This document shows positions 7,529 through 49,345 of a stretch of 52,858 nucleotides of DNA, piece by piece (within the stretch, counting starts at the first letter, position 1; each line of letters opens with the position of its first letter). The notes beneath the pieces are model-generated. The model was given only the letters and a program-made list of their open reading frames with translations. It had not been told where the DNA came from and made no database searches. The position numbers and the translations under genes are program-made. This stretch comes from an uncultured Verrucomicrobiales bacterium (lineage in GTDB: Bacteria > Verrucomicrobiota > Verrucomicrobiia > Verrucomicrobiales > DEV007): assembly GCA_937891465.1 (NCBI GenBank), contig CALAHF010000039.1, positions 1 through 52,858 of the forward strand. Reading direction: 5' to 3'.

Positions 7529-7556
7529 GGAGGCGTGTATTTAAAAAGGTTTTTTA

Positions 7557-7664
7557 CGATCCAATAGGGTTGGTTCGATGAATCAACAGGGTTGATTCGT
7601 GGGGCGGAAAATGACCGCTACGATCGGATAGGGTTGGTTCGTCGAATCAATAGGGTCGGTTCGT
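7557..7664. repeat. Dispersed palindromic repeat, locus 1 (two dimers, intergenic)
   Basis: Two copies of a ~45-bp dimer, starting at 7557 and 7621, are separated by about 19 bp. Each dimer is two half-units with the core ATAGGGTTGGTTCG or ACAGGGTTGATTCG, joined by TGAATC or CGAATC. The same cores occur at 12783-12952, 19128-19222, 42094-42193 and 48810-48930. Here they fill the space between yajC and secDF, inside what is normally one operon. Confidence 0.8.
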
Positions 7665-7689
7665 GAAGAGAGAAAAATCGTGCCGCAAA

Positions 7690-11954: not shown

Positions 11955-14426
11955 TCATTGCTTCGGTCCTTCCGCCCGCAGATACCCGATCAGATCCATT
12001 ATTTCGTTCTTCTCCAAAAGGTTGATTAGCCCCGGTGGCATGGTGGAAATATTGGGACCGGAGGGGTTTCGGTACTTGTCGCCGATGACGCGGTTGGGAT
12101 GAATCATTGATTCCAACATGTCGGACGGGCCGAATCGGGCACCGATTTGACTGAGGTCGGGGCCGAAAAAGGCGCGTTCGCTTGCGGCGTTGCCAGCTTT
12201 TTTGTGGCACACCGCGCACTGGGCTTTCACGTAAACGGCCGCCCCGCGTTTTACGTCTCGTTCTTTGGAAAAGTCCGTGTCGGCGAAATCTTCCATCGTC
12301 CAGTTTTTTACGAATTTTGCGGGATCAAGCTCTGCGATGATCGGGGGTTCTACTTTCGGCTGCTGAGGCGGAGTCAGAGCTGCGAATTGGATTTTTTCGT
12401 CGTCAGAAAGCCGCGCGACGAATTCCTTTCGCAAATCTTCGCCCGTGCGAATCCACCAACGGCCGCCCGCAAAGGAATCGAATTTTTTGAGACCGCCGAG
12501 ATAGCGTCGCCGATCGTCGGTCGTCCACATTTCGTCTTCGAGATACCGCAGAAAAACGAGGTAATGCGACCAATCCCGCGTGTCGTCGGATTCCTCGATC
12601 AACGTTAGCGTCGGCTGCAAAACTTTGTCCGATCGAAAATAAACCAGCATCTCGCACAGTTCGTGATTCACATTCTGCAGCGCGTGCGGGTAGAGCGGTT
12701 CCAGCGCATCGCGGAGCATTTGTTTTTCATCTTCCGTCGGAGGGCCTTGTCGGATGCAGGCGAGCTGAATCGCGCGCAAACGAGTCAATAGGGTCTGTTC
12801 ATCGAACGTACCCTGTTTATTTGGAGAAGGACTATCTTTCGGTTCCGCTGTCGCAGAATCCTCAGATCGCTGGCGAGCCAGCTTGCCGCCCTGTTTTGTT
12901 TCGTCTTTTCGAACAGACCCTGTTGGTTCATCGAACAGACCCTGTTCGATCGTTTCGGAGAGAATTTTTAGAATCGGTCCGCGATCTGATTTTCCGCCAA
13001 CACGGGCCAGCGCCATGAGCGCCCATGGATTTTGAGAATGTAGAATCGCCCCTTTCCAGCCCTCGATGTGATTCTCAATTGAAATTCGATTACTAAAACG
13101 AGAAACACGGTCTTGATGAAAAATTGAATTGAGGTAATCAGCATCATCCTTAACGGACGGCTTTCCCACATACGGCCCCGAAAAACCTTCTGGGCGCGGC
13201 AACTTTTTAGGCGAAGATTTTGGTTTCTCTCCCGTCCAACTCACCCGATATAGTGCACTCTGCGTCCGCCTTCCGCCCGTCGTGAACCACATCGCGCCAT
13301 CTGGGCCAAATACAAAATCGGTTAGGTTTAGTGGGCGACCAGACAGGAAATGCCGTGCTTCGGTTCCTTTGTAACTGGCTCCGTCGGGCTGAATATCGAC
13401 GGCCAGAATCCGGCCGTAGCTCCAGTCGGCGATCATGAAACTTGATCGCCACGGTTCGGGGAAATTGGATTTGTAGGCGAAGCCGACGCCGGTGGGACTG
13501 CCGAGGCCGACGTCGTAAACCGACGGCAAACTGTCTTCGTAATAGGCGGGCCACTTGCCGGTGCCGCGCCGCCAGCCGTATTCGCCGCCGGGGATGATGT
13601 GGAGAATTCGGGTCGGTTTATACCAAGCTAGACCGGCGTCCCACTCGCTGTCGGCATCATAGACGAAGGGCTCGCCATCGAGGTTGAAATCGATATCGAG
13701 CGGATTTCGCAAGCCGCCGCAAATGGCTTCGAATTTGGTGCCGTCTTTGTCGGTGCGGAGAATTTGGCCGGCGGGAACGGGGAGGCGATTCCATGAATCA
13801 TCCCACGGATTGGGAATGAGCTGGTCTTCGCCGTAGTTTTTGAACGGGGAATCAGGCGACGGATTTGCGAGTTTGGGATCGTTTCCATGAACGATGTAGA
13901 TCATGCCATCGGGGCCGAGTCGGAGATGGTTTCGCCCATGTCCCACCCCGCCACCGGTTAGGAGAAGCAACTTTTCCTCATCAAAAACGTCGTCTCCAGT
14001 CGTATCGCGGAGCCGGAAAAATCCTTTCGAATCGTTCGCGTTTACATACAGTGAATCGTAAGCCCAGAGCAGTCCGCGGGGCTCCCCGAGGTGATCGTTG
14101 ACGACTTTTACATCGACGACATCGGTTTTGTCTTCGCCGGAAAACGTGAGGCGCAAAATGCCTTTGTCCTCCATTCCGAGAAAGAGCCGGTCTTCGTCAT
14201 CGAAGCAGAGCGAAATCCACGAATCTTCTTCCTCGGCGGCAACACGGATGAGTTCGACTTTGAATCCCTCAGGCGCTTGAATTTCGGTTGGAGGCGGAAC
14301 CATTGCGGTGTTGCCGTCTTTTCGCCCCGCCATTTTCCACGAATCGTAGGCCGTTTTGTTGGGGACGTCTTGAGCTCTGGATGCGAGTGGAAAACAGAGA
14401 ATGAGAGCGAGGAGGTGCGATTTCAT
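11955..14426 (-). CDS. PVC-type secreted sugar-dehydrogenase-like beta-propeller with cytochrome c domain
   Basis: After a signal peptide (MKSHLLALILCFPLASRAQ; ATG at 14426, with 14444 as a longer alternative) comes a six-bladed PQQ/sorbosone-dehydrogenase-like propeller (about 40-410) with GHGRNHLRLGPDGMIY, GGLRNPLDIDFNLDG and PGGEYGWRRG. A helical repeat region follows (about 430-700). The C-terminus holds a single c-type haem site, CAVCHKKAGN, with FGPDLSQIGAR and a probable axial Met in NISTMPPGL. Proteins with this order are abundant in planctomycetes and verrucomicrobia; most have no proven substrate. About 50 residues in the helical region (roughly 490-550) come from an inserted dispersed repeat that keeps the frame open. 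A homologue without the insert would be expected to run directly from LSETI to TLLTRLRAIQLA. Confidence 0.88.
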   Translation of the reverse strand: MKSHLLALILCFPLASRAQDVPNKTAYDSWKMAGRKDGNTAMVPPPTEIQAPEGFKVELIRVAAEEEDSWISLCFDDEDRLFLGMEDKGILRLTFSGEDKTDVVDVKVVNDHLGEPRGLLWAYDSLYVNANDSKGFFRLRDTTGDDVFDEEKLLLLTGGGVGHGRNHLRLGPDGMIYIVHGNDPKLANPSPDSPFKNYGEDQLIPNPWDDSWNRLPVPAGQILRTDKDGTKFEAICGGLRNPLDIDFNLDGEPFVYDADSEWDAGLAWYKPTRILHIIPGGEYGWRRGTGKWPAYYEDSLPSVYDVGLGSPTGVGFAYKSNFPEPWRSSFMIADWSYGRILAVDIQPDGASYKGTEARHFLSGRPLNLTDFVFGPDGAMWFTTGGRRTQSALYRVSWTGEKPKSSPKKLPRPEGFSGPYVGKPSVKDDADYLNSIFHQDRVSRFSNRISIENHIEGWKGAILHSQNPWALMALARVGGKSDRGPILKILSETIEQGLFDEPTGSVRKDETKQGGKLARQRSEDSATAEPKDSPSPNKQGTFDEQTLLTRLRAIQLACIRQGPPTEDEKQMLRDALEPLYPHALQNVNHELCEMLVYFRSDKVLQPTLTLIEESDDTRDWSHYLVFLRYLEDEMWTTDDRRRYLGGLKKFDSFAGGRWWIRTGEDLRKEFVARLSDDEKIQFAALTPPQQPKVEPPIIAELDPAKFVKNWTMEDFADTDFSKERDVKRGAAVYVKAQCAVCHKKAGNAASERAFFGPDLSQIGARFGPSDMLESMIHPNRVIGDKYRNPSGPNISTMPPGLINLLEKNEIMDLIGYLRAEGPKQ
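12783..12952. repeat. Dispersed palindromic repeat, locus 2 (long form, inside the PVC dehydrogenase gene)
   Basis: The element starts with AATAGGGTCTGTTCATCGAA and ends with two copies of GAACAGACCCTGTT in the opposite orientation, so the ends form an inverted repeat. Between them lies TCAGATCGCTGGCGAGCCAG, almost identical to 48890-48910 inside phnE (there TCAGACCGCGGGCGAGCCAG). Read on the gene strand the element encodes KLARQRSED and GTFDEQTLLTR and contains no stop codon. Confidence 0.85.
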
Positions 14427-14538
14427 CGCTGATGATTGGACCACAAATTACGAGTCGAGGGAAGGGTTTTGGTAGCTTGATTTGCGGAGTCCAAGTTGAA
14501 GAATTGTTTCGCAACCTGAATCAGAGTAATATCCGTTG

Positions 14539-18359: not shown

Positions 18360-19135
18360 CTCAGCGCCTTTCTGATCCTGTTTTTTACAATCGGCGTTGG
18401 TCAATCCTAACCAACAGATTTAAGAGCAACGATGTTCGCGAACGGAGCCTCGACGAAATCTCTCATCAGCGGGTCATCGTTGTTGTCGCCCATCCGGATG
18501 ACGAAGTTTTTTGCTCGGGAATCATTTGCGAACTTGCCGAAAAACCGGACGTTGAGGTTCGTGTATTGTGCATGACTCGAGGAGAGGGCGGACCCCTTCC
18601 CCGTGGAATGTCACGCACTGAACTTGGAGTTAGGCGAGAAACGGAAATGCACAAGGCGTGCAATATTCTGGGCGTCTCCCGACTCAGTTTCCTCGATCAC
18701 AAAGACCCAGTGGGTGATGAATTTAGGACCTATCCACCTAACGTGTCGAAAAGGGAACTTACGGCTCAGTTGTTACATTATTTCCGTAAATTTGATACGG
18801 ATTTAATTCTCACACATGGCAGCTGGGGAGAGTATTGGCACCCCGCTCACCTCCTTCTGCATTCAGCGGTGATGCGTGCCGCCAAAGGCAGAAACGTTCT
18901 TACTTTTCAAGCCGAGAAAAAAGATCCAACCATTCCGGAAATCAACAACTCAGCTGATCCAGCTCATTTGAAATTCGATTTCTCGCATCATTTCAACACG
19001 CGATTGGAGGCTCTGGAAGCTCACGAATCTCAAATCGAGTTGTTTGGCCAGTTTGCGAACGGAACGCATGTGGGCTTTGTGAAGAAGACGGCGCGCGAGA
19101 ACCTTTCGATCAAATCGCTGGTCACGAAGCGATAG
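18329..19135 (+). CDS. PIG-L (LmbE-like) deacetylase frame lacking a normal start codon
   Basis: The frame carries the PIG-L signature VVVAHPDDEVFCSG (zinc ligands His-x-x-Asp-Glu) at about 18479-18520, then CMTRGEGG, SFLDHKD and a late His in SWGEYWHPAH. The family removes N-acetyl groups from GlcNAc conjugates. The frame is open from 18329, after a TGA at 18326-18328, but I find no ATG, GTG or TTG before the zinc motif; the first is a TTG at 18566, which would delete the active site. Read from the overlapping glycosyltransferase, a -1 slip on A-AAA-AAA (18329-18335) would give a glycosyltransferase-deacetylase fusion. Options are programmed frameshifting, a one-base mutation, or a rare start codon. 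The stop codon lies inside a dispersed repeat. Confidence 0.65.
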   Translation, partial: KKTGIPIRKIAQRLSDPVFYNRRWSILTNRFKSNDVRERSLDEISHQRVIVVVAHPDDEVFCSGIICELAEKPDVEVRVLCMTRGEGGPLPRGMSRTELGVRRETEMHKACNILGVSRLSFLDHKDPVGDEFRTYPPNVSKRELTAQLLHYFRKFDTDLILTHGSWGEYWHPAHLLLHSAVMRAAKGRNVLTFQAEKKDPTIPEINNSADPAHLKFDFSHHFNTRLEALEAHESQIELFGQFANGTHVGFVKKTARENLSIKSLVTKR

Positions 19136-19222
19136 GGTATGTTTATCGAACAGACCCTGTTGGATCGAAATCGCTCCACGATCAAGCAGGGTTGATTCGA
19201 CGAATCAAAAGGGTTGGTTCGT
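19128..19222. repeat. Dispersed palindromic repeat, locus 3 (between PIG-L and SGNH genes)
   Basis: Contains GATAGGGTATGTTTATCGAA, then the inverted unit ACAGACCCTGTTGGATCG, then AGCAGGGTTGATTCGACGAA and AAAAGGGTTGGTTCG. The TAG stop codon of the PIG-L frame (19133-19135) is part of the first ATAGGGT core, and the last unit ends a few bases before the next gene's ATG at 19226. The repeat therefore supplies both the end of one gene and the leader of the next. Confidence 0.8.
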
Positions 19223-19225
19223 AGT

Positions 19226-42084: not shown

Positions 42085-42093
42085 TGCCTTTTT

Positions 42094-42193
42094 ACGAACC
42101 AATAGGGTGTGTTCAACGAACATACCCTGTTGCTTCGAAACGGCTTTTCGATCGAATAGGGTTGATTCGTTGAACGAACCCTGTTGATTCGTG
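42094..42193. repeat. Dispersed palindromic repeat, locus 4 (between P-loop and YggU-like genes)
   Basis: Contains ACGAACCAATAGGGTGTGTT, inverted unit GAACATACCCTGTT, then CGATCGAATAGGGTTGATTC, inverted GAACGAACCCTGTT and a final GATTCGTG. Two dimers of opposite-facing units in about 100 bp. The last unit ends about 10 bases before the start codon at 42203, as at locus 3. Confidence 0.8.
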
Positions 42194-48298: not shown

Positions 48299-49345
48299 TC
48301 ATCGGCGCAATCGTTGCCGAATCCAAGTCGACAGCAAATCGCCGACCATGATGACTGATGAGCCGAGGAGCACGTAAAACAGCATTCGATCCCAGAAAAA
48401 GCCCTTCGTCATCATCATCAAGTGTCCCAGCGTCAGGACACCGAGCATTCCGAGAACTGTTGCGTCTTTCACGCAGGTTTCCCAGCGGTAGAAAAAGTAG
48501 ATCAAAAAGCGATTGAAGACCGCGGGGAAAATTACGAGGCCAAACACCTTTTTCCGGCCGAATCCATTTGCGAATGCCTGTTCAGCGGCGCGGGTGTCGG
48601 CATTCTCCACGACCTCGCCGAACAACCGTCCCAGAATGCCAAAATTATGAATCGCCAGTGCCAAAACTAGCGGCCAGAACTGCAAGCCCAGTAGCGAAAT
48701 CAGCAAAAATGCCAAAATATATTCAGGAATCGCCCGTGCCAGGACGAATAGAAACCGAGTCGCTGGTCCAAGAATGAGGCCACGAAAATCAAAGCTGGAA
48801 GGCGATTTTCGATCCAATAGGGTTGGTTCGTCGAACTTACCCTCTATGTTCGTAACAGGGACATCTTGCGATTGCAGGTTCCTGCCATCTTCAGACCGCG
48901 GGCGAGCCAGCTTTTGTCCCTGTTGGTTCGTTTTTTTGCCGGAGAATATTCCAAACGGATCGCGACGGCCCAGCTGCCGGCTTGCCAATGGTAAAAACGG
49001 AAGCACGAAAATCGTCGACAAAATGATCGCGGCACAGGCAATTCCGATCGTGATAGCGAGTGCCGTAAATCCCTTATCGGTGAATAAATCCCACGCCCAC
49101 GGAATCGATTCGCTCCAATCGCCAGATTTTCGAACAGGGGATGGAGTCAGGTCGCCGAGGAAATTCAGGAAATTTTGCCAACGCCGCGCGAACGGCAGGC
49201 GGCCGGTTAATTTTCCGGCTGAAAGCCACGCCCAAACGGTGAGTCCGAGCATCAGAAGCGCGCTTCCTTCGACAAATCGGGAACGCGATCGGCCTCGTCG
49301 GAGGACGTCGATTCGAGCCTGGCGATCTGGAGAAGAATGGGTCAT
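48299..49345 (-). CDS. phnE: Phosphonate-type ABC transporter permease PhnE (second copy), with in-frame repeat insertion
   Basis: A 348-residue inner-membrane permease. After a cytosolic N-terminus come membrane segments (SALLMLGLTVWAWLSAGKL, AITIGIACAAIILSTIFVLP, FLFVLARAIPEYILAFLLIS) and the EAA-type loop AAEQAFANGFGRKKVFGLVI that contacts the ATPase, as in PhnE. Aligned with its neighbour at 49342-50223, it contains about 45 extra residues (roughly 135-182) in the loop between GIFSG and FDFRGLILGP; these derive from a dispersed repeat (KLARPRSED, KFDEPTLLDRK). The start overlaps the stop of the first phnE by 4 bases (ATGA), so translation is coupled. Last gene of the phnD-C-E-E operon. 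Confidence 0.88.
   Translation of the reverse strand: MTHSSPDRQARIDVLRRGRSRSRFVEGSALLMLGLTVWAWLSAGKLTGRLPFARRWQNFLNFLGDLTPSPVRKSGDWSESIPWAWDLFTDKGFTALAITIGIACAAIILSTIFVLPFLPLASRQLGRRDPFGIFSGKKTNQQGQKLARPRSEDGRNLQSQDVPVTNIEGKFDEPTLLDRKSPSSFDFRGLILGPATRFLFVLARAIPEYILAFLLISLLGLQFWPLVLALAIHNFGILGRLFGEVVENADTRAAEQAFANGFGRKKVFGLVIFPAVFNRFLIYFFYRWETCVKDATVLGMLGVLTLGHLMMMTKGFFWDRMLFYVLLGSSVIMVGDLLSTWIRQRLRR
48810..48930. repeat. Dispersed palindromic repeat, locus 5 (long form, inside phnE)
   Basis: Begins CGATCCAATAGGGTTGGTTC, GTCGAACTTACCC, and ends GTCCCTGTTGGTTCG, so the ends are inverted copies. The internal TTCAGACCGCGGGCGAGCCA block is shared with locus 2. It adds an uninterrupted peptide to the permease in a loop between membrane helices. 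Confidence 0.85.

Follow-up and report, generated by a model that had tools for sequence, protein, structure and literature searches.

Dispersed palindromic repeats lie in frame within unrelated protein genes of one verrucomicrobial family

The window, i.e., the whole stretch of 52,858 nucleotides that was analysed, comes from contig CALAHF010000039.1 of an uncultured Verrucomicrobiales bacterium (GenBank assembly GCA_937891465.1; the genome is referred to as G000 below). Copies of a palindromic repeat are present in this window within two protein genes, P0001 and P0002, and between genes (Table 1). Named homologues of P0001 all belong to Verrucomicrobiota and are 49-57% identical to it, in agreement with the phylum guessed in the initial annotation. 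The composite repeat in P0001 spans window positions 12779-12952, with half-sites A[CT]AGGGTNNGTTC at 12788-12800 (+), 12804-12816 (-), 12911-12923 (-) and 12933-12945 (-). The sequence of the P0001 segment is EQGLFDEPTGSVRKDETKQGGKLARQRSEDSATAEPKDSPSPN-KQGTFDEQTLLTR, and QRSEDSATAEPK is an example of a peptide from within the element-encoded segment. In P0002, which contains TNQQGQKLARPRSEDGRNLQSQDVPVTNIEGKFDEPTLLDR, the half-site A[CT]AGGGTNNGTTC lies at 48817-48829 (+). The covariance model R1 was built from 29 copies that included both of these, so that their matches to it arise by construction; independent evidence for the window copies is provided by the DNA search. As the initial annotation had stated, both copies have the same strand and frame and lack stop codons, both genes being open through the element. 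The permease copy, which had been described as the longer one, is in fact 125 nt long vs 127 nt for the equivalent P0001 element; the P0001 stretch noted at the time owes its greater length only to a second, directly repeated unit joined to it at 12904-12952. An Rfam scan of the window gave no known RNA family, and this possibility was rejected. Immediately downstream of the P0001 gene (11700-11955) there is a 255-bp imperfect palindrome, whose 35-nt arms are 89% complementary and whose whole stretch is 67% self-complementary; no second copy of it was found in 848 kb.

Table 1. Host genes and repeat copies in the window
Feature	Coordinates	Strand	Basis or remarks
P0001 host gene	11955..14444	-	Open frame of 829 aa; DUF7133 (PF23500), HEAT-like helical region, C-terminal cytochrome c (PF00034)
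Long element in frame in P0001: terminal half-unit, two-hairpin core and complete palindrome	12779..12905	-	Covariance model R1, 125 bits, model positions 1-125; also DNA search
31-bp palindrome in P0001, AATAGGGT-N15-ACCCTGTT	12787..12817	.	
43 extra codons of P0001, residues 501-543, EQGLFDEPTG...SPSPN	12816..12944	-	Alignments
Second pair of directly repeated units, fused to the P0001 long element	12904..12952	-	Half-sites 12911-12923, 12933-12945
P0002 host gene, ABC transporter permease	48299..49345	-	BPD_transp_1 (Pfam PF00528)
Long element in frame in P0002, TNQQGQKLARPRSED...NIEGKFDEPTLLDR	48808..48932	-	R1, 116 bits
Two intergenic inverted-unit copies, tandem	7555..7665	.	Repeat family D1
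Two copies, mainly intergenic	19124..19223	.	Repeat families D1-D3
Two intergenic copies	42093..42193	.	Repeat families D1-D3

The basic unit of the repeat, ACGAWSCAAYAGGGTNNGTTCGNCGAACNNACCCTRTTGSWTCGT, spans 45 nt and consists of two 22-nt half-sites in inverted, head-to-head orientation. The consensus symmetrised over 83 palindromes is ACGAWSCAAYAGGGTNNGTTCGN followed by its mirror, T-rich outside, with ACGAWSCAAYAGGG as the terminal inverted-repeat end. Units also occur singly or as direct dimers 22 nt apart, and a long form of ~125 nt contains an extra two-hairpin core. Constraint along the 45-mer is irregular: CGA, AA, AGGGT and TC are strong, and neighbouring positions are two-state. 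A 31-bp frame, AACAGGGT-N4-TC-N3-GA-N4-ACCCTGTT, is common to three genera, and the inner bases differ. Beyond one weak position (z 2.3), no positive covariation was detected between variable positions of the two arms of the 45-mer or between potential stem positions inside units. There is thus no visible sign that the 45-mer is maintained as a hairpin, and a stem-loop under structural selection was rejected for it. In the outer stem of the long-form core, pairing-preserving double changes were seen at two pairs (3 and 2 changes; for example, AGGGC/GCCCT vs AGAGA/TCTCT), and the third hairpin of the core varies in sequence while most copies can still fold (mean z -1.7, 26 distinct sequences). 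Position frequencies of the 83 palindromes with 27-nt flanks, which also served to look for sequence tags, revealed that direct repeats in the flanks are not clearly enriched at any offset of 4-12 and length of 2-9; with no target-site duplication, a classic MITE was rejected.

The initial annotation had proposed that P0001 carries a dispersed palindromic repeat in frame, and the genome-wide search that it suggested bore this out, many more copies being found inside and outside genes. In the 5.97 Mb genome there are 924 exact half-sites vs one match to a reversed-pattern control, and G000 contains 265 copies of the full palindrome AAYAGGGT-N-ACCCTRTT vs 0 for the control. With up to three mismatches, 107 palindromes were counted in 848 kb of G000, which extrapolates to ~750 genome-wide. 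The long form (at least 70 bits) has 53 copies in G000 and 10 in G001, a genome of the same genus. Counts of the full palindrome were 525 in G001, 27-148 in four genomes from genus g12 and 7-92 in five out of six sampled from genus g2; the sixth g2 genome and nine genomes from eight other genera had none. A search of 384 genomes across the class with a stricter palindrome pattern retrieved matches in the family of G000 only. The repeat is restricted to three genera of one verrucomicrobial family. Neither the full palindrome pattern in IMG/VR nor the long consensus in phages and plasmids gave a match, on which grounds a phage or plasmid origin was rejected.

Location and reading frame were determined in 848 kb of G000. 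Intergenic positions hold 123 of the 145 half-sites (85%), although coding sequence makes up 87% of the sampled bases, as called by a simple codon-usage caller made for this analysis, whose start positions are approximate. The density of palindromes is ~50-fold lower in genes than between them; between convergent genes it is only slightly above that elsewhere, which does not suggest a pure terminator role. Of ten palindromes that lie deep within called genes, 60 or more residues away from the start, one or two may be chance matches given the three mismatches permitted; eight of the ten are in the QQGxFDEPTLLDR phase and two in another. This phase is open in 46% of intergenic copies vs 67% and 56% for the other two, so that 27% would be expected from openness (binomial ~7e-4, or ~6e-3 when both window copies are left out, each calculated by hand). 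The preferred peptide of copies in genes is (N)QQGxFDEPTLLDR / KLARQRSEDSREAEPEDSP.

In-frame copies were found in eleven proteins: the cytochrome-type dehydrogenase, the permease, AsmA/DUF748-like, FG-GAP, GSDH and ParA proteins, a penicillin-binding protein (PBP) with transglycosylase/transpeptidase domains, a squalene-hopene cyclase-like protein, MobA-FdhD, a BlaR1/M56 peptidase and NuoH (domains by Pfam; NuoH was named from its sequence). By extrapolation, there are roughly 50 in-frame host genes per genome. The BlaR1/M56 gene (L129 1679-1803) has two palindrome units ~30 residues apart in the same frame. MobA and FdhD form one fused open reading frame in several genera (L127 1961-3379; L171; L162-L165), and in genera g1 and g12 the palindrome is located in the linker between the two domains. 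Copies lying just past a plausible start codon at L006/L063, L128 and L030/L087 would lengthen the n-region of a signal peptide, the true starts being uncertain.

We compared occupied sites with those of homologues. The gap that the initial annotation had suggested looking for in P0001 orthologues was found at residues 501-543, which are missing in homologues outside the genus. The stretch between flanking anchors is 36-37 residues long in many homologues, 56 in G001 and 80 in G000, i.e., a gain of 19 and 43 residues, respectively. The corresponding stretch of P0002 has 31 residues in G004, 47 in G001 and 79 in G000; G001 has a short palindrome only at this site and G000 has the long form. Likewise, the ParA stretch grows from 21-23 residues in homologues to 40 in G001, where a short palindrome is present, and to 77 in G000, where a long composite is present. 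The intergenic comparison uses the rpoB-rpoC spacer, most other gene order being too rearranged relative to G001: this spacer contains a palindrome in G000 and G001 and none in the g12 genomes G029 and G035, and is ~40-45 nt longer with the palindrome. In an AlphaFold model of P0001 (mean pLDDT 72), the helices 485-504 and 549-565 score ~90, and residues 507-544 score below 50, which is partly expected, since the alignment held no other sequences for this segment. Residues 507-544 are thus predicted to form a disordered loop between two confident helices, and the modelled location of the segment in the turn between them is independent of its low score.

Older sites behave differently. G000, G001 and most g12 genomes share the position of a palindrome in the transpeptidase-type PBP, the cyclase-like protein and MobA-FdhD, and the 31-bp palindrome of P0001 is also present in the P0001 homologues of another genus. 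At three such sites (in pbpC, in the cyclase and at the primary site of P0001) there is no net change in length vs palindrome-free outgroups: carriers and outgroups have, respectively, 37-42 vs 39-40 residues in the PBP, 26-33 vs 26-35 in the cyclase (the G000 protein is longer because it has two units) and 37 vs 36 in P0001, where the conserved D and LL are retained and overlain by the palindrome. Simple insertion does not account for these sites. Possible explanations are insertion followed by trimming, a preference for similar sequence as a target, replacement at equal length, or selection of the site. Spread achieved partly by overwriting host sequence of equal length instead of inserting, for instance if a single strand templates the replacement or if an inverted repeat that binds a protein is selected in place, would explain the same-site, length-unchanged palindromes of the cytochrome-dehydrogenase, PBP and cyclase in two genera, but we think it rather improbable. 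In L306, a relative's gene that we take to encode a PSD1-type cytochrome, the right arm of the palindrome coincides with an NPVD motif conserved in that protein family, which is another hint of in-place origin.

We observed high copy number, intergenic and frame biases, and copies that lie in frame in genes unrelated to one another; some sites are occupied in more than one species, and some are empty in other genera. The explanation that we favour, and consider likely, is that these are non-autonomous dispersed palindromic repeats that have proliferated in genomes belonging to a single verrucomicrobial family. Copies would arrive by insertion with the aid of an enzyme acting in trans; those that break genes would be lost, and those that survive in genes would lie in loops or at termini, in a frame encoding a tolerated peptide. 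The core module may have come later, inside or beside existing palindromes, which would have given rise to loops of 43 residues in P0001 and 41 residues in the permease. Judged by its open frames, the segment would be translated, and the peptide is probably neutral. The claim of the initial annotation that the element is mobile or spreading agrees, as far as mobility can be deduced, with the copy number and the empty sites; no transposase or other mobilising enzyme was found and no target-site duplication was seen, and, together with the three length-neutral sites, these points weigh against our explanation. That the element adds a peptide holds for the sites of in-frame added length, while most copies are intergenic and some old sites are length-neutral.

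Alternatively, the half-site could be the recognition sequence of a host DNA-binding protein (a nucleoid, segregation or recombination factor), in which case copies at selected positions would be retained or would form anew after loss, and intragenic ones would be tolerated in loops. Such a protein would fit the constraint, which base pairing does not explain, since there is no covariation between arms or inside the unit, as well as its irregular pattern, the 31-bp frame common to three genera despite different inner bases and the same-position palindromes of g1 and g12 with unchanged length. However, absent covariation is also expected if a few masters seeded the copies, and the lower density in genes, a copy number that ranges from 0 to 525 inside one family and the lack of an excess of lone AAYAGGGT half-sites all argue against it; we regard this explanation as unlikely.

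The occurrence of single units, head-to-head and direct dimers, the intergenic bias and intragenic copies resembling REPs (PMC3733652) would suit an ordinary BIME-like system, i.e., REPs whose mobility depends on a RAYT (Y1 transposase). Yet the consensus is without a GTAG or CGTC tag, and the numbers of Y1_Tnp matches do not track those of palindromes: G001 has 525 palindromes vs one weak match and G072 has 86 vs none, while G004 and G026 have 0 vs 36 and 0 vs 17, respectively. The sole Y1_Tnp copy of G000 has an internal stop and is flanked by another palindrome. RAYT-driven mobilisation, rejected on the Y1_Tnp counts, is in our view very unlikely. The Y1_Tnp remnant (L120 1380-1470 and 1930-2030) has a CCGGAGGTTGAGCGAAGCGACACCTCCGG-type palindrome at its flanks, which is apparently a second, true REP family. 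Least probable of all would be a DNA-uptake-like signal evolving in place via point mutation and molecular drive. It could produce length-neutral gene copies at the same positions and one preferred frame, but 45 nt is a considerable length for a signal of this kind, clear insertions are seen at several sites, and lone half-sites, on which this candidate was rejected, are not in excess (43 vs ~52 expected by chance, calculated by hand for two 8-mers in 848 kb).

Protein-coding palindromes are mainly known from Rickettsia, and the carriers of the palindrome described here are, to our knowledge, not known to be intracellular. A second system, with relatives that have and lack the repeat, allows one to follow how such repeats spread and how frame and site are filtered, and to ask whether palindromic repeats create new protein loops and linkers. 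The composite core and the length-neutral sites provide leads towards a mobiliser.

The initial annotation knew of no counterpart in Verrucomicrobiota. Di Nocera et al. (2013), however, described intragenic GTAG palindromes in Opitutus terrae (Verrucomicrobia), as well as the CGTC repeats RPE-4 and RPE-6 in Rickettsia conorii (PMC3733652); although the Opitutus repeats are a different family, the phenomenon is thus not new in principle in Verrucomicrobia. Like these GTAG/CGTC REPs, which are known in Verrucomicrobia, our repeats are short palindromes occurring as singles and dimers, mostly intergenic and sometimes in genes; unlike them, they show no tag, no stem covariation and no link to a Y1 transposase, and have a composite long form. 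PARCELs are also palindromic DNA coding for peptide, but are tandem 25-residue repeats in open reading frames without assigned function (PMC2996958). The copies studied here, in contrast, are inserted singly and scattered over conserved genes that are unrelated to each other. Like our repeats, DNA uptake sequences form inverted pairs and also occur within genes, where their positions are fixed and a single frame is preferred; compared with them, our unit is much longer and lone half-sites are not in excess. The comparison with Rickettsia palindromic elements (RPEs; Ogata et al. 2000) made in the initial annotation is the right one in principle, both being in-frame palindromes that add peptides. 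RPEs are summarised in PMC10969869 as palindromic repeats of ~100-150 bp, in frame in unrelated genes, with a conserved peptide compatible with host protein folding. The two systems share the in-frame placement of a palindromic element in protein genes that are unrelated, as well as one conserved peptide frame; ours differs in the group of organisms, in its 45-nt inverted unit with hundreds of mainly intergenic copies and in its composite long form with a separate core. In behaviour, RPEs are the systems nearest to ours. We class the repeat as a variant of protein-coding palindromic repeats, outside both the REPs and, judging by their description, the RPEs.
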